Shown: positions 17,367 to 26,141 of the stretch, one piece after another
Numbering within the stretch: position 1 is the stretch's first letter
How the letters are laid out: each line of letters starts with the position of its first letter
Source: Streptomyces sp. NRRL F-2664
GTDB taxonomy: Bacteria > Actinomycetota > Actinomycetes > Streptomycetales > Streptomycetaceae
Direction: 5' to 3'
Length of the DNA: 64,000 nt
NCBI RefSeq assembly: GCF_000719345.1
Contig: NZ_JOFX01000034.1
Coordinates: forward strand, 6,830 to 70,829
Position numbers and translations under genes: made by a program
Notes under the pieces: generated by a model
The model's input: the letters and a program-made list of their open reading frames with translations, nothing else
The model's database searches: none
Told to the model about the DNA's origin: nothing

Positions 17367-18545
17367 TCAGTAGACCGGCTTCTCGGGCTCGATCTGGTGG
17401 ACCCAGCCGATGACGCCGCCGCCGACGTGGACGGCGTCCGCGAAGCCTGCGGACTTCAGGACCGCGAGGACTTCCGCACTGCGGACACCCGTCTTGCAGT
17501 GCAAGACGATGCGCTTGTCCTGCGGGAGGTCCTGCAGGGCGGTGCCCATCAGGAACTCGCCCTTCGGGATCAGCTTCGCGCCGGGGATCGAGACGATCTC
17601 GTACTCGTTGACCTCGCGGACGTCGATGATCTCGATCGGCTCGTCCGTGTCGATCCACTCCTTGAGCTGCTTGGGAGTGATCGTGGAGCCGGCGGCCGCC
17701 TCCTGCGCCTCCTCCGACACGACGCCGCAGAAGGCCTCGTAGTCGATGAGCTCCTTGACGGTCGCGTTCGGACCGCAGACCGCGCAGTCGGGGTCCTTGC
17801 GGACCTTGACCTGGCGGTACTGCATCTCCAGGGCGTCGTAGATCATCAGGCGGCCGACGAGCGGCTCGCCGACGCCCGTGAGGACCTTGATGGCCTCGGT
17901 GACCTGGATGGAGCCGATGGACGCGCAAAGCACGCCCAGCACGCCGCCCTCGGCGCAGCTCGGGACCATGCCCGGCGGCGGCGGCTCGGGGTAGAGGCAG
18001 CGGTAGCACGGGCCGTGCTCGGACCAGAAGACCGAGGCCTGGCCGTCGAAGCGGTAGATCGAGCCCCACACGTACGGCTTGTTCAGCAGCACGCACGCGT
18101 CGTTGACGAGGTAGCGCGTGGCGAAGTTGTCCGTGCCGTCGACGATGAGGTCGTACTGGCTGAAGATCTCCATCACGTTCTCGGCCTCGAGCCGCTCTTC
18201 GTGAAGGACCACGTTCACGTACGGATTGATGCCCAGCACGCTGTCCCGGGCGGACTCGGCCTTGGAACGGCCGATGTCCGACTGGCTGTGGATGATCTGG
18301 CGCTGCAGGTTCGACTCGTCGACCTCGTCGAACTCCACGATGCCCAGGGTCCCGACGCCGGCCGCGGCCAGGTACATGAGGGCGGGAGAACCGAGGCCGC
18401 CCGCGCCCACGGCCAGCACCTTCGCGTTCTTCAGGCGCTTCTGGCCGTCCATCCCGACGTCCGGGATGATCAGGTGACGGGAGTACCGACGGACCTCGTC
18501 AACGGTGAGCTCAGCAGCCGGCTCGACCAGGGGTGGCAGCGACAC
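17367..18545 (-). CDS. moeZ: Adenylyltransferase/sulfurtransferase MoeZ
   Basis: MoeZ adenylates the C-terminal glycine of ubiquitin-like sulfur carriers (MoaD, ThiS, CysO and natural-product carriers) and then thiocarboxylates them. The 392-residue protein has an E1-like domain with GAGGLG (47-52), the Arg/Asp pattern around NLQRQ, and two zinc CxxC pairs (Cys 180/183 and 254/257). A C-terminal rhodanese domain has the persulfide cysteine in LHCKTGVRS (Cys 350). The GTG at 18545 gives the standard N-terminus. A SigR-type promoter lies 45 bp upstream and overlaps the stop codon of the preceding gene, so it probably has its own thiol-stress-responsive transcription although it lies 63 bp after the polysaccharide genes. 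Confidence 0.95.
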   Translation of the reverse strand: MSLPPLVEPAAELTVDEVRRYSRHLIIPDVGMDGQKRLKNAKVLAVGAGGLGSPALMYLAAAGVGTLGIVEFDEVDESNLQRQIIHSQSDIGRSKAESARDSVLGINPYVNVVLHEERLEAENVMEIFSQYDLIVDGTDNFATRYLVNDACVLLNKPYVWGSIYRFDGQASVFWSEHGPCYRCLYPEPPPPGMVPSCAEGGVLGVLCASIGSIQVTEAIKVLTGVGEPLVGRLMIYDALEMQYRQVKVRKDPDCAVCGPNATVKELIDYEAFCGVVSEEAQEAAAGSTITPKQLKEWIDTDEPIEIIDVREVNEYEIVSIPGAKLIPKGEFLMGTALQDLPQDKRIVLHCKTGVRSAEVLAVLKSAGFADAVHVGGGVIGWVHQIEPEKPVY

Positions 18546-18589: not shown

Positions 18590-18615
18590 AACACTGCCAC
18601 GCCCGTCTTCATTCC
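18590..18615 (-). promoter_or_regulatory. SigR-type promoter of moeZ
   Basis: On the minus strand GGAAT (18615-18611) and GTT (18592-18590) are separated by exactly 18 bp, the SigR/SigH consensus. The -35 element overlaps the TGA stop of the Spherulin-4 gene. As I recall, moeB/moeZ was among the SigR targets described in S. coelicolor. Confidence 0.7.
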
Positions 18616-19364
18616 AAGACACCTGTCCCGATACGTGAGACGATTTCGTCCCAGTACCCGGGCATGGACGCCCAGGGGTCGCGGCCCCCCGCGGCGCGGC
18701 GGTCGGTGAACCAGATCGTGCCCGCGCCCTGCCAGCGGGCGATCCGCATCGCCTCCTCCAGGTGGGAGCGCGGCACCCCGTGGACGAGGTGGCAGAACCG
18801 CTCCGGGGGATGCTCGGCGGTCCACTCCGCCACCTGCGACCAGCGGTAGTCGGCCCACGCGCCGGAGAAGGTGACCAGCTGGTCGGCGGCCTCCGCGTAG
18901 CCCTCGTACGGGTGGGTGCCGTGCCCGAGCACGATCCGCAGGTCCTCCCCCAGCCCGCGCAGGCTGTCGACGACCCGGCGCACCGAGGCCAGTTCCGCCT
19001 TGTCGGCCGGAGTCCCGGCGAGGTAGAAGCCGCCGACGCCGTACCAGTCGCGGAAGCGGTGGGCGTCGGAGACCAGCTCCCCGAAGGACCGCGCCCCGTC
19101 CCGCATCGCGAGATGCCCGAGGACCGTGCCGCCCGCGCCGTGCAGCTTCACGGCGGCTTCCGTGCAGTGCGGGTCGGGCCGTCCGCCCGGCCCGTCGGCC
19201 ACGTTCAGCACGGCCCAGTGCAGCGGGGTGCCGGGGCGGGTCAGCTCGGCCCACTCCACGGGGGCGAGGAGCGGGTGCGCGTAACCGGGGATGCCCAGCC
19301 CGAGGCGGCCGGCGCCGGTCGCGGCCGACGCCAGGGCCCCCGGCGGAGTGGTCAGATGCGGCAC
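18609..19364 (-). CDS. Spherulin-4 (GH135/Sph3-type) family protein
   Basis: This 251-residue TIM-barrel protein resembles Spherulin-4, a family that includes fungal Sph3 (GH135), which cleaves alpha-1,4-GalNAc in galactosaminogalactan. The match is seen in the N-terminal GLGIPGYAHP, the strand WAVLNVADGPG, the YGVGGFYLAG strand, HGTHPYEGYAE and the FSGAW strand. No signal peptide is visible, so it should be cytoplasmic unless exported otherwise. At the end of the GFYL strand, where active members carry an acidic residue, this protein has Ala-Gly. Its start overlaps the epimerase gene by 13 bp, so the two are translationally coupled. Function is inferred from the family only; it may be a binding protein or an inactive relative. 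Confidence 0.75.
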   Translation of the reverse strand: MPHLTTPPGALASAATGAGRLGLGIPGYAHPLLAPVEWAELTRPGTPLHWAVLNVADGPGGRPDPHCTEAAVKLHGAGGTVLGHLAMRDGARSFGELVSDAHRFRDWYGVGGFYLAGTPADKAELASVRRVVDSLRGLGEDLRIVLGHGTHPYEGYAEAADQLVTFSGAWADYRWSQVAEWTAEHPPERFCHLVHGVPRSHLEEAMRIARWQGAGTIWFTDRRAAGGRDPWASMPGYWDEIVSRIGTGVLE

Positions 19365-20362
19365 GCCGCCTCCATCCAGATGTCCGCCAGAGACTCCTCC
19401 AGGTTGATCCGGGGCCGCCAGCCGAGCCGGTCGCGGGCGGTGCGCACGTCGGCCTGCTGCCAGGCTCCGCAGCCGTCGGGGTACGGGTACGGCTGGGGCG
19501 CCGCCGCGAGCTGCTCCACGGAGGCCTCGGAGCGGGGGGAACCGATGGAGGAGAGTCCGGCCGGCGGGCGGCCGGGGTGCCCGTGCGCCTGCTGCGGGCC
19601 GCCGTGCGGTACGTCGAGCTCGTGCAGGGCCCCTGCGTACCCGGCGACCCGGGCCAGGACCGCGGCGGCGTCGCGCAGCCGGACCGCGCGGCCGGTGCCG
19701 ATGTTCACCACTCCCTGGGCGGCGGACAGCGACGCGGCGTGCACGGCCCGCGCCACGTCCCGTACGTCGACGAAGTCGCGCTGCACGCCGAGCCCGCTGA
19801 GCTTGAGCTCCCCGTCACCGGACTGCATCGCGCGCCGCATGGCCTCGGCGAGCCGGCCGAGCGGCGACCCGGCGGGGGTGCCGGGGCCGACGGGGGAGAA
19901 GATGCGCAGCACGACGGCGTCCAGCCCGGAGCCCAGCACCAGTTCGGTGGCGGCCAGTTTGCTGACGCCGTACGGTCCGCCGGGTCTCGGCACGGCGTCC
20001 TCGGCCGTGGACGACCCGGGCTGGCTGGGCCCGTACTCGGCGGCGCATCCGAGCTGGACGAGCCGGGCCCCGCAGCCGCTGCGGCGCAGCGACTCGCAGA
20101 TCGTCGCGACGGCGACGGTGTTGTGGCGGGTCAGTTCGCGCGCTCCGCCGCGGGTGGCGCCCGCGCAGTTGATGACGACGCCCGGGTGGACGGCGTCGAG
20201 GAAGCGCGTGAGGGCTCCGGGGCTGCCCGTGGCGAGGTCGAAGCGGACGTCGGCGTCGTCGCCGCGGCCGAGCGCGGTGAGCTGGACGGCGGGGTCGGCG
20301 AGCAGCCGGTCGGCGACGTAGCGGCCGAGGTATCCGTTGGCTCCGATCAGCAGCACCCTCAT
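19352..20362 (-). CDS. NAD-dependent epimerase/dehydratase (extended SDR)
   Basis: This is a 336-residue nucleotide-sugar epimerase-type short-chain dehydrogenase. The cofactor loop is IGANGYLGRYV (GxxGxxG) at residues 6-16 and the catalytic YxxxK is YGVSK near residue 130. Members interconvert or oxidise NDP-sugars in the cytosol; UDP-GlcNAc/GalNAc C4-epimerases of this fold (PelX, Uge3) serve Pel and galactosaminogalactan synthesis. Here it lies between the membrane-protein gene and the Spherulin-4 gene, on the same strand as a PelF-like glycosyltransferase, so supplying its sugar nucleotide is the natural guess. AAGGGG lies 7 nt before the ATG. A 132-bp gap precedes it, so it may also have its own promoter. 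Confidence 0.82.
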   Translation of the reverse strand: MRVLLIGANGYLGRYVADRLLADPAVQLTALGRGDDADVRFDLATGSPGALTRFLDAVHPGVVINCAGATRGGARELTRHNTVAVATICESLRRSGCGARLVQLGCAAEYGPSQPGSSTAEDAVPRPGGPYGVSKLAATELVLGSGLDAVVLRIFSPVGPGTPAGSPLGRLAEAMRRAMQSGDGELKLSGLGVQRDFVDVRDVARAVHAASLSAAQGVVNIGTGRAVRLRDAAAVLARVAGYAGALHELDVPHGGPQQAHGHPGRPPAGLSSIGSPRSEASVEQLAAAPQPYPYPDGCGAWQQADVRTARDRLGWRPRINLEESLADIWMEAACRI

Positions 20363-20494
20363 CGCGTGACCCCTTGGTCGGTTGGCTGGCCGGTCATGTC
20401 TGTGTCTCCTTGCGGACGGGTGGGTGGACGGTGGGGCGGGGTACGGGAGTTCGCTTCGGCGTCGGCTCCGAAGGGTGAGTGGTCCGGTGGGACG

Positions 20495-21607
20495 TCAGGG
20501 CCTCGCGTGGGCGGAGGCGCGGGACAGGGCGAGGACGGCGTGAACGAGGAGTACGGCCGCGGCCGCCGCGGCCGCCCCCGGTACGGGGATCAGGGCCAGG
20601 GCGAGTGCGGCGGCGACGGGTCCGCGACGGGATCCGTGCCGCAGCAGGAGCCGGGTCAGGAAGAACAGCAGGGCCAGTGGCACCGCCACCGCCGGCGGTG
20701 TGCCGGTGAGGGCCGCGGCCCCGGCGGCGGCCGCGGCGAAGCAGGCGACGGCTGCGAGGAGCAGGGGCCGGGCCCGGTCGGCGAAGTCCTCCAAAGCGCG
20801 GCTGCCGTCGAGCCTGGCCCGCCCTCCGCCGGCGAACGCGGCGGCGAGCAGGTGCCCGGGGGCGACGGCCAGCGCGAGGGCGACCGCGAGGGGGGTGCCG
20901 TACCGGTACGCGGCCCAGCCGGCGACGGCTGCGGCGAGCAGGTGGGCGAGCCACGGGAACCTCCCCCCGGCGGCGCGGCCCGGCAGGACGAGCGCCGCGA
21001 CGGTGGCGGCCACGGCGGCGGGTCCGGCCCACGTCTGGCCGGCGGCGGCTGCGCCGGCGGCCAGCGCCCCGGGCAGCAGGGCGCAGCCGAGGGTGCGGTA
21101 TGCGGACGGCCCGGCCGGGGGCGCGGCCGGTGCGGCGGCGGGTGCTTCGCCGCGCGGGCTGCGGGCGTACAGCTCCTCGGCGAGGGAGAAGACGTCCCGG
21201 TGCCGGAAGCGGGCGGCGGTGCGGTCGGTGATGCCGTGGGCCTCCAGCCCGGCGGCGATCTCCAGGGGGTCCACGGCCCGCTCGCACAGCTCGCGGTGCC
21301 GGTGCAGCAGCGCCTTGACGGGATCCCCGCCGGTCCGGCGGCGCGCCTGCGGCGTCGCGCCGCGGGCGACCTCGTCCAGGGTGGCGTCGGCGCCCGCGGG
21401 TCGGGGGGCCGGCCGGAGGTCCGGTAACGGTGCCGCACCCGTGCTCACGCCCGACTCCTGCTGCGCACCATCGGGCCGCGCCGCGTCGGCGCCTGCGCCA
21501 CCGGACCGCGGCTCGGTCGCCGACGGGGCACGGGCGGGAGCCGAGGGCGGCACCGGGGCGGATGGCAGCGCCGGCGGGGCCGCGGTGTCGGGGTCGACGG
21601 TGGTCAT
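20495..21607 (-). CDS. Polytopic membrane protein with disordered N-terminus, glycosyltransferase partner
   Basis: I do not recognise a named family. The 370-residue protein begins with about 90 Pro/Ala/Ser-rich residues, then a soluble segment LLHRHRELCERAVDPLEIAAGLEAHGITDRTAARF in which the PelF-linked membrane proteins of Streptomyces have a short helical domain (quoted here only by its ends, residues about 95-135), then 7-8 hydrophobic helices with almost no polar residues. The start ATG overlaps the stop of the upstream glycosyltransferase gene as ATGA, so the two are translationally coupled and probably act together at the membrane. It could be the export or scaffold component of a polysaccharide synthase; it is too short for PelG (about 12 helices). 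Confidence 0.7.
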   Translation of the reverse strand: MTTVDPDTAAPPALPSAPVPPSAPARAPSATEPRSGGAGADAARPDGAQQESGVSTGAAPLPDLRPAPRPAGADATLDEVARGATPQARRRTGGDPVKALLHRHRELCERAVDPLEIAAGLEAHGITDRTAARFRHRDVFSLAEELYARSPRGEAPAAAPAAPPAGPSAYRTLGCALLPGALAAGAAAAGQTWAGPAAVAATVAALVLPGRAAGGRFPWLAHLLAAAVAGWAAYRYGTPLAVALALAVAPGHLLAAAFAGGGRARLDGSRALEDFADRARPLLLAAVACFAAAAAGAAALTGTPPAVAVPLALLFFLTRLLLRHGSRRGPVAAALALALIPVPGAAAAAAAVLLVHAVLALSRASAHARP

Positions 21608-23223
21608 ACGGCGGCCTCCGAGGTCGGGTCCGGTGCGGGCGTGGCCCAGGTCGGGCTGGTCCAGTGGCCGGGCACCCGCGCCTCCGGGGGCCGGGCGAAG
21701 GGGATGCCGCCGTCGGGCCGTTCGGAGCCCTTGGCCAGCAGCCGCAGGTAGATCTCCTGGAAGGCGGTGACGTTCTGCTCGACGGTGAACAGCTCCAGGG
21801 CGCGCGCCCTGGCGGCGGCCCCGAGGCGTTCGGCCCGCTCGGCGTCCCCGAGCAGCGACAGGCAGGCCTCGGCGAGCGCCCGCGGATTGCGCGGCGGGAC
21901 GACGAGACCGGTGCCGCCGATGACCTCGCACACGGCGCCGACATCGGTGGATACGGTGGCGCGCCCGCAGAGCATGGCCTCGGCCAGGGTCACCGGGAAG
22001 CCCTCGATCACGGAGGACAGCACGACGACGCGCCCGCCGGCGTACGCCTGCGCAGCCGTTGGGGCCTCCGGTCCGCCGACCTCCTCGAAGGCGACCGGGT
22101 TCTCCCCGGCGGTGACGCAGTCTGCGGCCTCGTCGGGGAACAGCTGGGCGGCGAGGGAGCGGCAGTCCGCAAGGTAGCCGGGATCCGCGGCCGTGGCGAA
22201 GATCCGCAGCCGGGTGCCCGGTCGGGTCCTGCGGACCTCGGCGAAGGCGTGCAGCAGGGCGACGAGGTCCTTGGCGGGCTCCACCCGGCCGACCCACACC
22301 AGCGTGTCCGGGTCGCCGCGGTCGGCGCCCTCCCCGACGGAGGCGAATCGGTCCGCCTCCATCCCCGGGTGGACCGTCCTCAGCCGGTCGCGGGTGGCGC
22401 CGCAGCGCTCCTGCCAGCGTCGGGCGTGGGCGTTGCCGGGGGTGAGGAAGTCGGCCCGGGTGTAGATCTCGCAGGCCAGCCGCAGGTGGAAGGCGGCGAG
22501 CAGGGCCCGTACCGCGGGACGGGGCTCCTCGGCCCCGCCGGAACCGAGGTGGGCCAGGTAGTGGGCGCGCAACTGGACGCCGTACTCGGTGACCAGCAGC
22601 GGGACCCCGAAGAAGCGTTTGGCCAGCAGGCCGGGGAGGGCTGCCACCCCGCCGGCGGCGGCGTGGCAGACGTCGACGGCTGCGAGGCCCTCGCCGTGGG
22701 CGTTCTCCTCGTACCAGCCGAGGGACAGCGGCCGCAGCATGCGCTCCAGGTCGTCCACGAACTCCAGCAGGTCGGCCACCCGCGCGGCCTGTACGGTGCG
22801 GCTCGCGCCGGGGGCCCGGCAGGCGGCCTCCAGGGCCCGGACCGCGGACTCGGAGCGCAGCGCCGCGTGGAGCCCGCCCTGTTCGCGGGCGAGTCCGGCG
22901 AGCCCGTACAGCCCGGCTGCGAAGGGGTCGGGGGCACCGGCGCAGATCCCGTGGACCAGCTGGGCGAAGCAGTCCGCGAAGCGCCGCCGCTCGCGCCGGG
23001 AGTAGGTCCGCCCGTCGTCGGCGGGGGCCCACAGGGGGGCGGTGCGGACGCGGGTGACGTGCTCGGGCAGGGGGACCCGGGCGCGCTCCTGGTCGGCGCT
23101 GCGGCTCAGCGCGTAGAGCTCGAACTCGTGCTGCGGGAGTCCGCGCACGAGCCGGTCGCACCACAGCCTGGCCTCGCCCGTCGCATACGGATAACCACCT
23201 TCGGTGAGCAGTCCGATCCGCAC
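21604..23223 (-). CDS. PelF-like GT4 glycosyltransferase (DUF3492)
   Basis: This 539-residue cytosolic GT-B glycosyltransferase has the DUF3492 N-terminus typical of PelF, beginning RIGLLTEGGYPYATGE, and a GT4 C-terminal domain with VWVGRVEPAKD and the donor-site EX7E motif EGFPVTLAE. PelF polymerises UDP-activated N-acetylhexosamines into the Pel exopolysaccharide in Gram-negative and some Gram-positive bacteria. The GTG at 23223 is chosen because the family consensus starts exactly there and GGGGG lies about 9 nt upstream; the longer frame adds 88 unrelated residues. It is the first gene of a set ending with the Spherulin-4 protein. The polymer made here is not known. Confidence 0.85.
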   Translation of the reverse strand: MRIGLLTEGGYPYATGEARLWCDRLVRGLPQHEFELYALSRSADQERARVPLPEHVTRVRTAPLWAPADDGRTYSRRERRRFADCFAQLVHGICAGAPDPFAAGLYGLAGLAREQGGLHAALRSESAVRALEAACRAPGASRTVQAARVADLLEFVDDLERMLRPLSLGWYEENAHGEGLAAVDVCHAAAGGVAALPGLLAKRFFGVPLLVTEYGVQLRAHYLAHLGSGGAEEPRPAVRALLAAFHLRLACEIYTRADFLTPGNAHARRWQERCGATRDRLRTVHPGMEADRFASVGEGADRGDPDTLVWVGRVEPAKDLVALLHAFAEVRRTRPGTRLRIFATAADPGYLADCRSLAAQLFPDEAADCVTAGENPVAFEEVGGPEAPTAAQAYAGGRVVVLSSVIEGFPVTLAEAMLCGRATVSTDVGAVCEVIGGTGLVVPPRNPRALAEACLSLLGDAERAERLGAAARARALELFTVEQNVTAFQEIYLRLLAKGSERPDGGIPFARPPEARVPGHWTSPTWATPAPDPTSEAAV

Positions 23224-23703
23224 GAGTGGCACCCCCGATCTTCCGTTCAGGCGGTCTCCGTCGGTCAGGCGACCCGCCGCGGGAGAACTCAAGCGGATGT
23301 GCCGCAGGCGCGGCGGACGGTTGTCCGTCGCGCCACCGGAAGGGGTGAAGAGTCGTAACTTTCCCGTACGGTTCGCGTTCGAGCGCGCTAGAAGTGCGGC
23401 CTCGGAACTGCCGAACTGCGGTGCGGCAGAGGCCCGGTGGCGTGACGTGCGGCGGTCGGCGGCGCGTCCGGGATCGAGTGCCGGCACGGCGGCGGGCAGT
23501 CGGCGGGTGCCCGGGGGGAGCGTGCCCCGCCGGAGCCGCTCTCGCCCCGGCGACGCCGAGGGTCACCCCCGCGTGCGCGGCGAGGGAAGCCCCGCGGCGC
23601 CGGGCGGGCTGCTGTTCCCGCGCCTGCGGGCCGGGGAGCGCCCGGGCGCTGCGGCGTCACGGAGGTCGACGCCCACCCCGCCGACCGCAGACCGGACGTC
23701 TCG
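23224..23703. other. 480-bp intergenic region upstream of the glycosyltransferase gene
   Basis: It separates the glycosyltransferase start from the end of the DUF3152 gene on the same strand, so it should carry the promoter of the polysaccharide genes and a terminator. A locally AT-richer stretch around 23345-23375 is the best promoter location, but no convincing -10/-35 pair or long stem-loop is seen. No credible gene lies in it. Confidence 0.6.
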
Positions 23704-25140
23704 TCAGTTCCCGGGAAACGCCCAGGGGTTGGGCCTGCACTGGATGCCGTCGATGTTCAGGGACTTGGTCTGCTGCTGCATGACCGGGGCGAGCGCGCCC
23801 GGGGTGCTGCAGTTGACGTGGCCGTGACCGAGCCGGTGGCCGACCTCGTGGTTGATGAGCATCTGCCGGTAGGCGAACATCTGGTCCGGGCCGTAGGTCT
23901 CCGAGCCCTGCGCCCACCGGAAGGCGTTGATCATCACGCGCTCGGTCTTCGCCGAGTCGCAGGACACGTTGCCGACGACGGTGTCGAGGCCGGACTTGGC
24001 ACACCAGATCCCGGTGGTGCCGGGGCTGGCGAGGGTGATCACGAAGTCGGACTCCCCTCCCGGGACCCGTTCGAAGGTCTTCGAGCCGCCGTGGCCCCAG
24101 CTGCGGTCGTCGTTGAGGGTGCGGTGGACGGCCTCGGCGAAGAGCTGCGGGTCCAGTCCCAGTCCCTGCTCGACGTCGACCCGGTAGCGCACGATCCTGC
24201 CCTTGCCGGGGGCCTTGGCCACACCGGGCACGGTGTCGAAGGTCCCGGGCCCGGCGAGCTTCGGATCGAAGGGCAGCTGCGCCGCCATCTGCTGTTCGTA
24301 CGTCAGCTCGGGCGCCGGGGCGGGCGCGGCGGCGGAGGGCGCCACGGGCGCGGCCACGCCGCCGTTCGGGGTGGGGCGGCCGTCGGAACGGGAGGCGGCG
24401 GTGTCGCTGCGCTCCTTGTCGGTGGCGGCGGGCGCGCCGGCCCTGGCCTCCTCCGCGTCGCCGTCGAGGTACCCCTGGCCGGCGACGACCACCGCGAGGA
24501 CGGTGGTCACCGCGGCCGCGGCCATGCCGGTGTACGTACGGACCCTGCGGCCGCGCCCGGTGCCGGCGGCGGGCTGTTCGCAGGCGGCGTCGTCGGCCGG
24601 CCGCCGCGGGCCGGGGACCTGGCGGTGGGAACCGGTGGAGGTCAGCGGGTCGGCCCCCGGCGCCGCATCGGGCGTTGTCGAGCGGGGGGCCGGCGGTTCG
24701 AGGGTGACCTGCGGGAAGCCCACGGCGGGTGTGCCGAAGGCCGGGGTGTCCGGGTCCCGTCGCGGGGCGGGGGGCGCGGTGCGCGCCGAGGGGGCCGGTT
24801 CGGCAGCCCGCGGTCGCGGTATCCCGTGCCAGTCGCCGTACACGGCGTCGGGTCCGGCACCCCAGGCGCGACCGGTTTCGTACTGCTGGGGGTGGCCGCC
24901 GGCCCGGGTGGCGGCGGTCGACCGGTCCTGGGAGGCGTATCCCCGGTGGGTGACGGTCGGTTCGGGCCACCCGGCGAACGGGTCGCCGTTGCCGAAGACG
25001 TCGTCGCCGGGCGCGTCGTGGGCGAACGGGTCCCCGTACCCGGCGTGATCCGGCTGCGCCTGCGGGCGCGCTGCGGCGGGCGCCGGCGCCGGAGCTGACT
25101 CCGGAGCGGGCGCCCCGGATTTTCGACTGTGTCGTCCCAC
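23704..25140 (-). CDS. Membrane-anchored DUF3152 protein with metzincin-like zinc motif
   Basis: This 478-residue protein has a long Pro/Gly-rich, probably cytoplasmic N-terminus (about 200 residues), one membrane helix around residue 215 (GMAAAAVTTVLAVVVAG), a disordered linker and an extracellular DUF3152 domain of about 200 residues. That domain contains HEVGHRLGHGH, a full HExxHxxGxxH zinc site as in metzincins, followed by Cys in VNC; four cysteines may form two disulfides. A membrane-bound extracellular metallopeptidase is the natural prediction, but activity is not established as far as I know. The GTG start at 25140 is 5 bp after the alpha/beta hydrolase stop, so they form an operon. 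It matches the Rv3207c position in mycobacteria. Confidence 0.82.
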   Translation of the reverse strand: MGRHSRKSGAPAPESAPAPAPAAARPQAQPDHAGYGDPFAHDAPGDDVFGNGDPFAGWPEPTVTHRGYASQDRSTAATRAGGHPQQYETGRAWGAGPDAVYGDWHGIPRPRAAEPAPSARTAPPAPRRDPDTPAFGTPAVGFPQVTLEPPAPRSTTPDAAPGADPLTSTGSHRQVPGPRRPADDAACEQPAAGTGRGRRVRTYTGMAAAAVTTVLAVVVAGQGYLDGDAEEARAGAPAATDKERSDTAASRSDGRPTPNGGVAAPVAPSAAAPAPAPELTYEQQMAAQLPFDPKLAGPGTFDTVPGVAKAPGKGRIVRYRVDVEQGLGLDPQLFAEAVHRTLNDDRSWGHGGSKTFERVPGGESDFVITLASPGTTGIWCAKSGLDTVVGNVSCDSAKTERVMINAFRWAQGSETYGPDQMFAYRQMLINHEVGHRLGHGHVNCSTPGALAPVMQQQTKSLNIDGIQCRPNPWAFPGN

Positions 25141-25145
25141 GGCCC

Positions 25146-26141
25146 TCAGCCCCTGCCGTCTTCGGTGTCCCGGTCCGCAGCTCCCGCGCAGGTGTCGCGC
25201 AGCAGCTCCGTGAAGGCGGCGGCCACCACCTCGGGGTACTCCATCATCGCCACGTGCCCGGCCTCGGGCAGGCACAGCAGCCGCGACCCGCGGAAGGCGG
25301 CGGCGGCCCTGCGGGCCATACGGTACGAGACCAGTTGGTCGCGGCCACCGTAGACCAGCAGGGCGGGGGCGAGCACGCGCTGCGCCTGGCGCCACAGTCC
25401 GTGCTGGCCACCGAGGGTGTAGGCGTCGACGATGCCCCGCGAGGTGCGGGTCATCACGTCCCAGAAGTACGGGAGGGCCATGCGGCGCTCCATCTCCTCC
25501 ACCGCGTTGCGGAAGCCTTCCGGAGTCACCCGGGAGGGGTCGCCGTAGCAGAGGTCCATCACTCCCCGGGTGCGCTGTTCTGCGCTCAGGCCCTGGGTCA
25601 TCCGGCTGAAGAGGCCTGCCACGCCGGGCACCGCGAGGAGCGCCGTCGGCACGGCCGAACGTTGCACGCGCAGTTCGGGCAGGGCCGGGGAGACGAGCGT
25701 CAGGGTACGCACGAGGTCGGGGCGGGCAGCCGCGACCCGGGTGGAGACGGCGCCGCCGAGGGAGTTCCCGAAGAGGTGGACGGGCCCGCGTCCGGCCGCG
25801 TCGAGGTGGCGGATGACGGCCCGGGCGAAGGCGGTGACCGAGTACTTGCGGTCCGCGGGCGGCGGGGACCAGCCAAATCCGGGGAGGTCCACCGCCTCGC
25901 CGTCGACGGTGTCCGCCAGCTCCGCCATGAGGGCGGACCAGTTGTGCGAGGAGCCGCCCAGTCCGTGCACGAAGAGCGCGGGGGGCAGGCCCGTCCGCCG
26001 CGGCGGGTGGGACCGGACGGCCAGTTCCAGCCCGGGCAGCGCGGCGATGCGCAGCTGCTCGCCGTCGGCCAGCCGGACCGCTTCCGCGGGGAAGGACGGT
26101 TCGGCGGCGGACCGTACGCCCGGCAGCTCGGTCGAAGACAT
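25146..26141 (-). CDS. Alpha/beta fold hydrolase
   Basis: This 331-residue cytosolic hydrolase shows the canonical order: oxyanion HGLGGSSHNW, nucleophile elbow GNSLGGA, catalytic Asp in YGGRDQLV and catalytic His in EAGHVAMMEYP. The substrate is unknown; it could be an esterase, lipase or C-C hydrolase. It precedes and is presumably co-transcribed with the DUF3152 gene (5-bp gap). There is no Shine-Dalgarno before the ATG, but TAACAT lies 7 nt upstream, so a leaderless mRNA is likely. It diverges from the small acidic-protein gene. Confidence 0.85.
   Translation of the reverse strand: MSSTELPGVRSAAEPSFPAEAVRLADGEQLRIAALPGLELAVRSHPPRRTGLPPALFVHGLGGSSHNWSALMAELADTVDGEAVDLPGFGWSPPPADRKYSVTAFARAVIRHLDAAGRGPVHLFGNSLGGAVSTRVAAARPDLVRTLTLVSPALPELRVQRSAVPTALLAVPGVAGLFSRMTQGLSAEQRTRGVMDLCYGDPSRVTPEGFRNAVEEMERRMALPYFWDVMTRTSRGIVDAYTLGGQHGLWRQAQRVLAPALLVYGGRDQLVSYRMARRAAAAFRGSRLLCLPEAGHVAMMEYPEVVAAAFTELLRDTCAGAADRDTEDGRG

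Follow-up and report, generated by a model that had tools for sequence, protein, structure and literature searches.

The 64,000 nucleotides of Streptomyces sp. NRRL F-2664 analyzed here (contig NZ_JOFX01000034.1, referred to as the window) carry a run of four minus-strand genes that encode a PelF-like glycosyltransferase (GT), a transmembrane (TM) protein, an extended short-chain dehydrogenase/reductase (SDR) and a Spherulin-4 protein of the GH135 fold, followed by moeZ (Table 1). On balance, the sequence comparisons favor the view that this locus descends, by reduction and re-purposing, from an actinobacterial cluster of the Pel or galactosaminogalactan (GAG) type. An original prediction, made from the bare sequence, had taken the four genes as a candidate exopolysaccharide locus, and the open reading frames (ORFs) and junctions match its description: the GT and TM genes share a 4-bp ATGA overlap, while the SDR and Spherulin-4 genes overlap by 13 bp. 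The predicted interval, 18609..23223, holds the four genes but ends before moeZ, their constant neighbor with a putative functional tie to the locus, which starts on the same strand 63 bp after the Spherulin-4 stop codon. In the following, L and G numbers designate loci and genomes, window-type refers to the moeZ-linked locus, and type-2 to the fuller cluster encoding CE18-like, PelF, TM, Spherulin-4 and GH114 proteins, of which the strain itself possesses one copy (L003, contig C10).

Table 1. Features of the moeZ-linked locus and related loci of the same genome.
Feature	Position	Strand	Remarks
PelF-like GT4 glycosyltransferase (DUF3492 + Glycos_transf_1)	21604..23223	-	539 aa, GTG start
TM protein	20495..21607	-	370 aa
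Extended SDR	19352..20362	-	336 aa
Spherulin-4 (GH135-fold) protein	18609..19364	-	251 aa; probable pseudo-hydrolase
moeZ (adenylyltransferase/sulfurtransferase)	17367..18545	-	constant downstream neighbor; NF005902 750.6 bits (cutoff 647)
Conserved upstream element	23286..23365	-	GAAAGTTACG..TTCACCCCTTYY, 15-17-bp hairpin/palindrome, TANNNT-like box
12-codon mini-ORF (MTGQPTDQGVTR)	20359..20397	-	stop overlaps SDR start (ATGA); preceded by AAGGAG
DUF3152 protein	23704-25395	-	frequent upstream neighbor of the locus
Own-genome type-2 cluster	L003:4787-11545 (C10)		Agd3-like, PelF, 478-aa TM, Spherulin-4 (Asp + Glu), GH114
Third own-genome Spherulin-4	L002:1321-2280 (C1)		signal-like hydrophobic N-terminus, Asp + Glu kept

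The GT is assigned to DUF3492 (PF11997, 106.6 bits against a cutoff of 23.3) and narrowly passes the PelF model NF038011 (104.2 bits, cutoff 100), for which its paralogue in L003 reaches 170.4 bits. A search of the strain's genome with the GT reports 8 matches, two of which are prominent, those of the window and of L003, the other six being far weaker. The EX7E catalytic pair is present (E407, E415) and, among the 85 window-type loci covering these positions, E407 is kept in 80, E415 in 84, K318 in 78 and R313 in 75. The TM protein did not return any Pfam model (E<=1) or NCBIfam model (E<=0.01). Its predicted structure comprises a disordered N-terminus, a conserved helical domain of ~55 residues (96-149), with a predicted local distance difference test score (pLDDT) >=90 over residues 101-150, and eight long helices. 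Foldseek did not report any significant match with the MOP fold for this protein, and we assign that fold solely to the full-length TM paralogue (L003:8578-10014, 478 aa), the 12 helices of which are predicted to fold as in MOP flippases. According to these models, the window protein would be a shortened relative of the 12-helix MOP-like transporter, and the cluster family would include a PelG-like part because of the fold predicted for this paralogue. The original prediction that PelG is not recognizable therefore stands at the sequence level, neither the window TM protein nor its paralogue matching the PelG Pfam model at E<=1, but not at the fold level. Helix counts from hydropathy (4 for the window protein, 1 to 8 for 82 relatives, 6 to 11 for 29 type-2 rows) undercount the helices relative to the models and were given no weight.

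The Spherulin-4 protein belongs to the predicted family, GH135 (PF12138, 70.6 bits, cutoff 30.2), but its residues make the implied hydrolase unlikely. The Sph3 catalytic Asp and Glu, as listed in the accessible part of PMC12054363 and with residue numbers taken as printed, align with A116 and S167, both being replaced. Within the 95 window-type Streptomyces loci compared, the window's own included, the Glu is never found (0/95) and the Asp is found in 66, leaving 29 without it; both acids are present in all 31 type-2 or unlinked Spherulin-4 loci. Among the ten moeZ-linked loci of other genera, only L186 and L188 possess both acids. The window protein is devoid of a strongly hydrophobic N-terminal stretch, and in 20 aligned copies from both loci the 12-residue N-terminal hydrophobic maximum does not exceed 1.86, as compared with 2.43 in the secreted-type L002. 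An active GH135 enzyme was thus set aside for the window copy on its missing Asp and Glu, and is judged unlikely.

The SDR matches the Epimerase family PF01370 (127.4 bits, cutoff 20.9), but its score with the GalE model TIGR01179 is only 35.1 bits against a cutoff of 262.3. After strand beta-2 it carries Gly-Arg (G32-R33), as expected of NADP-type enzymes, an Asp at this place being the mark of the NAD-type. Tyr131 and Lys135 are present, while Cys106 takes the place of the catalytic Ser, a replacement common to all 90 Streptomyces loci scored; Tyr and Lys are likewise kept in 90/90 and Arg33 in 91/91. In 29 SDR rows from type-2 and family loci, Cys occurs in 7, all of them moeZ-linked, and Ser in 22, including L186, L188, L192 and all 12 Streptomyces type-2 rows; the exceptions at the other positions are His for Arg in two type-2 rows and Phe for Tyr in L192. 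The closest solved relative reported by profile A2 is the GDP-4-keto-6-deoxyhexose reductase 2pk3 (118.9 bits), with 6x3b in second or fourth place, and the first named UDP-glucose 4-epimerase reaches 76.4 bits. By these matches, the window SDR most likely has a 4-keto-sugar reductase ancestry. The epimerase acting on UDP-linked N-acetylhexosamine (UDP-HexNAc) that had been predicted was rejected, given the GalE score, the cofactor residue, the Cys for Ser, the closeness to reductases, and the cluster context discussed below.

The search with the window Spherulin-4 protein reports matches in 98 of 101 Streptomyces genomes. Contig ends truncate seven of the 95 window-type loci; in 84 of the 88 uncut ones the order GT-TM-SDR-Sph-moeZ is intact (76 plain, 8 with an additional weak TM match further upstream, DUF3152 matches being ignored in these counts as low-complexity noise), and moeZ adjoins the locus in 95/95. 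The genes therefore co-occur and adjoin each other across the genus, as the original prediction implied. Nevertheless, synteny within Streptomyces alone would be weak evidence of a functional link, because the flanks (DUF3152 protein, abH) are often conserved too. The phylum draw returns 18 matching genomes out of 396, 11 of them within the genus; outside it, L076 is a TM-Spherulin-4-GH114 set in another family, L077 encodes a secreted Spherulin-4 next to a response-regulator phosphatase and differs from this cluster, and the remaining matches are weak. The family draw, performed with the mixed Spherulin-4 profile A1 that includes type-2 copies, matched 88 of 101 genomes.

Purifying selection acts on each of the four genes. 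Compared with the 8 closest relatives, the ratio of nonsynonymous to synonymous substitution rates (dN/dS) amounts to 0.03-0.08 for the SDR, 0.12-0.21 for Spherulin-4, 0.22-0.28 for PelF, and 0.31-0.47 for the TM protein over 7 comparisons, one having been dropped (33 codons). Values well under 1, together with the presence of the locus in nearly all species searched and a conserved upstream element, make it extremely improbable that the locus is a decaying relic without function, even if such a relic would account for the apparent stepwise loss of genes, the missing catalytic residues and the repeated deletions of parts.

These deletions do not strike the four genes alike. Among the four uncut loci that depart from the common order, L145 has no match for PelF and TM, L153 and L039 retain N-terminal PelF fragments without any filtered TM match, all three keeping SDR-Sph-moeZ, and L168 retains fragments of PelF, TM and SDR. 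Spherulin-4 is gone in G028 and G037 and reduced to a 48-aa remnant in G044, the three genomes keeping PelF-TM-SDR-moeZ, while G064 and G086 possess SDR and PelF together and give no match in the Spherulin-4 search. The SDR is the least often lost of the four genes: of the 91 loci in which it can be assessed (4 of the 95 are contig-cut), 90 have it intact, as do 5 of the 6 genomes left over, or 95/97 in total, the sixth being G001, which is 79% complete. The idea of four genes forming one obligate pathway is poorly compatible with this pattern. It could instead reflect two units, namely the SDR, with or without Spherulin-4 and perhaps tied to moeZ, in a metabolic or regulatory role, and PelF with TM as a separable passenger pair. 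The loss or fragmentation of PelF and TM in L145, L039 and L153, and their absence at L192 and L194, agree with such a division, as does the median identity of the SDR to the window (86%), far above those of Spherulin-4 (65%), GT (63%) and TM (39%), MoeZ itself reaching 94%. However, Spherulin-4 can be lost while PelF, TM and SDR are kept, the upstream element precedes PelF, and we know of no chemistry that joins MoeZ to such an SDR, so that two independent units are considered quite unlikely.

The ancestry of the locus is better seen in fuller clusters. The PelF-TM-Spherulin-4 set is repeated at a second chromosomal place in the same genome, L003, the first protein of which reports weak matches with the Agd3 deacetylase and CBM87 (21.3 and 16.2 bits, both below the cutoff of 27.6); this cluster is likely the GAG/Pel-type locus of the strain. 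Type-2 loci fetched from other Streptomyces associate PelF, TM and Spherulin-4 with an SDR in 12 of 20 cases, and in all 12 a dehydratase and a nucleotidyltransferase (NTase) precede the SDR. Such recurrences speak against a chance grouping of these genes. In L047, L051 and similar type-2 loci, the LegB-like 4,6-dehydratase, the NTase and the SDR stand between TM and Spherulin-4. The L051 dehydratase scores just below the LegB cutoff (449 vs 475 bits), and the L047 NTase is closest to mannose-1-phosphate guanylyltransferases. The substrate of Campylobacter jejuni LegB is GDP-GlcNAc, according to the available part of PMC7439481. Taken together, these enzymes make a GDP-linked 6-deoxy-HexNAc a reasonable guess for the full clusters. 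Since the best own-genome match to the type-2 dehydratase is just 37% identical, the SDR of the window seems to be left without its former dehydratase partner.

Twenty loci from other genera of the family were picked among the family-draw matches, and ten of them adjoin moeZ: seven with all five genes, L192 and L194 with SDR-Sph-moeZ only, and L186 with a full cluster. PelF and TM are missing at L192 and L194, the genomes of which display only weak GT4 matches elsewhere. The gene row of L186 is CE-PelF-TM-dehydratase-NTase-SDR-Sph-GH114, in which the CE is an Agd3-like deacetylase and the 4,6-dehydratase is LegB-like; a PIN-like ORF and bioB separate its GH114 gene from moeZ. Quick trees, with the Shimodaira-Hasegawa-like approximate likelihood ratio test (SH-aLRT) as the sole support, covered the type-2 and family loci together with a sample of 22 (21 for PelF) out of the 95 window-type loci. 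The moeZ-linked copies form one clade in each of the SDR, Spherulin-4 and PelF trees (100% SH-aLRT each). L186 is the first branch of this clade for PelF; for the SDR and Spherulin-4, the first branches are L186 and L192, their mutual order being unresolved. L188 is the next branch for PelF and SDR, while its placement is unresolved for Spherulin-4. The Streptomyces locus is best read, from these trees and gene contents, as the reduction of a full cluster that already resided near moeZ, and four genes (deacetylase, dehydratase, NTase and GH114) would be gone from it relative to L186. Since the strain also possesses a type-2 cluster in which 3 of the 4 window genes have a counterpart, the window proteins might be regulatory paralogues serving the type-2 machine of the same genome. 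This is very unlikely, as the window-type Spherulin-4 is the sole match in 28 of 95 genomes, a proxy that can miss divergent copies, and the locus thus seems to persist without a type-2 partner.

Upstream of the GT gene lies a conserved element, the 24-base core of which, ~118 nt before the GT start, is present in 84 of 85 loci at <=5 mismatches. Its palindrome (arms 23337-23323 and 23318-23304 in the window, where it is imperfect) has the center GGAC-AACC-GTCC, in which one loop C differs in one row. Pairing was assessed on 50 sequences, namely 42 Streptomyces copies, out of 82 distinct ones, and every one of the 8 close copies from other genera. The hairpin is paired in 91.9% of cells, with changes on both sides in 29 cells vs 13.5 +- 2.7 after shuffling (0/500), although such tests are inflated by relatedness; 6 pairs show both-side changes, a number that shuffles reached in 46/500, and a slide by +3 also yields 6 such pairs, with 20 cells and 53.8% pairing. 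Folding z-scores of four copies range from -7.7 to -2.4, the window copy being the weakest. After the hairpin comes a TANNNT-like box with invariant T84 and T89, which reads TGAGTT in the window, and a promoter-operator would therefore be at least as likely as an RNA leader. Rfam reports no match at cutoff near the element and two far below it, promoter and terminator scans return one unrelated promoter-like site and no terminator, and a GGAAC-type pattern of extracytoplasmic function (ECF) promoters has no match. The exact element pattern has a single occurrence in each of 53 genomes out of 61, against 0 control matches, and 4 of the 8 genomes lacking it (G008, G017, G046, G050) have contig-cut loci. 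The element persists in L145 and L194, both devoid of PelF and TM; L186 yielded no good copy (13 mismatches of 35).

Gene loss from a full moeZ-linked cluster would have been stepwise. The GT would still be active and add hexosamine-type sugars on the cytoplasmic face, and the TM protein would hold it at the membrane, its conserved N-terminal domain docking or regulating the GT. Spherulin-4 may now be a glycan-binding or regulatory pseudo-hydrolase. The SDR, on which constraint is strongest among the four, may act as a reductase that binds NADP(H) or as a redox-responsive subunit. Instead of a deacetylated and processed exopolymer, the product would be a short glycan or a glycoconjugate. More tentatively, the four proteins might form a cytoplasmic glycan-sensing or glycoconjugate-making complex, a genus-wide Streptomyces module derived from a polymer-building cluster, that would combine an active PelF-like GT, a membrane anchor with a docking domain, a pseudo-GH135 glycan reader and an NADP(H)-binding SDR made possibly redox-responsive by its Ser-to-Cys replacement, under one promoter/operator palindrome. 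Several points weigh against reduction and re-purposing. TM proteins elsewhere in Streptomyces are longer (median 452 aa), so that shortening is firm for the window copy only; the full moeZ-linked cluster is known from one genome, L186; the trees are quick ones with SH-aLRT only, and a long branch (2.29) leads to the clade in the SDR tree. The usual donor-site Lys and Arg of the GT are kept in just the 78 and 75 loci mentioned above. Neither the absent Glu of Spherulin-4 nor the Cys for Ser of the SDR proves inactivity. With a transporter encoded outside the locus, the GT could still produce a long polymer, and the strong constraint on the SDR would be expected just as well of a common metabolic enzyme that has no relation to the GT.

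Alternatively, the locus might still work in a reduced Pel/GAG-like manner, as originally predicted, with the GT making and the TM protein exporting a hexosamine polymer, the SDR supplying the sugar nucleotide and Spherulin-4 trimming the product. The ancestry in a deacetylase-GH135-GH114 cluster, the GT motif, the MOP-like paralogue and the conserved order fit this scheme, and so do the low amounts of galactosamine-containing polysaccharide in Streptomyces cell walls cited in the accessible part of PMC7229062. In contrast, the Spherulin-4 protein has neither the Glu nor a secretion-type N-terminus, the SDR is not epimerase-like, the window TM protein is shortened, deacetylase and GH114 genes are missing at the locus, and parts are lost separately. 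The Pel/GAG-like part of the prediction hence holds for the ancestry, while its present function is doubtful and a working exopolymer pathway unlikely.

The preferred reading, a reduced and re-purposed descendant, can be confronted with known systems. Actinobacterial operons associated with Agd3 (CE18) comprise a cytoplasmic GT, a multispanning membrane protein and, in some cases, a Spherulin-4 gene (Bamford et al. 2020, PMC7229062, as far as its available text goes). L003 looks like one of them. The window locus differs by the absence of CE18 (Agd3-like) and GH114 genes beside it, the absence of the Spherulin-4 Glu, and the presence of the SDR; the available text of that paper does not mention the moeZ-linked reduced form. 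The Bacillus cereus pelDEADAFG operon (PMC7112168, seen in part) shares the PelF-type GT and, through the 12-helix paralogue, the MOP-like membrane protein. The Gram-positive PelD described in that portion possesses an epimerase-like domain, the residues of which are altered in actinobacteria and others. However, PelD, PelE, PelADA and PelG are not among the neighbors of the window PelF (DUF3152 protein, TM, SDR, Spherulin-4, moeZ), the TM protein lacks a PelG sequence match, and the SDR is separate and of the NADP-type. As compared with the Aspergillus GAG cluster (Uge3, Gtb3, Sph3, Ega3, Agd3), full bacterial clusters share relatives of Sph3 (GH135), Ega3 (GH114) and, weakly, Agd3. Gtb3 is a predicted integral membrane synthase in the accessible text of PMC7229062, whereas PelF-type proteins are not, and the window Spherulin-4 is devoid of the Sph3 Asp and Glu. 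Lastly, GDP-6-deoxy-4-keto-hexose reductases (2pk3, 6x3b) are the closest solved relatives of the SDR, which in type-2 loci follows a LegB-like dehydratase and a mannose-1-phosphate guanylyltransferase-like NTase; the window SDR differs from them by its Cys for Ser and by having neither a dehydratase nor an NTase beside it.

If this reading is true, the locus would make it possible to follow how a cluster for a biofilm polymer shrank, step by step, to a Streptomyces module that is nearly universal; related genera would provide the intermediate, L186, and two partial states, L188 and L192. The module is apparently unstudied, no paper on the moeZ-linked locus having been found among the listed titles and abstracts of open-licence PMC papers. 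Two tempting annotations, hydrolase and epimerase, are corrected. The modeled fold of the paralogue also suggests that the hypothetical membrane protein of actinobacterial Agd3-type operons is folded as a PelG-like transporter would be. Besides, the pairing of dehydratase, NTase and SDR with enzymes of GalNAc polymers makes a 6-deoxy-HexNAc (e.g. FucNAc) variant of Pel/GAG a testable idea.

Regarding the surroundings, the mini-ORF preceding the SDR gene may provide translational coupling, as its stop overlaps the SDR start. The SCO5178 gene is moeB, according to the accessible part of PMC4340878. No cluster of this type was seen within the 3.7 kb surrounding L002; the own-genome Pfam search found two Spherulin-4 genes and missed the window copy, so that absences in this search are not proof. 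The frequent upstream neighbor of the locus, the DUF3152 protein, displays what we take to be a HExxHxxGH-type motif.

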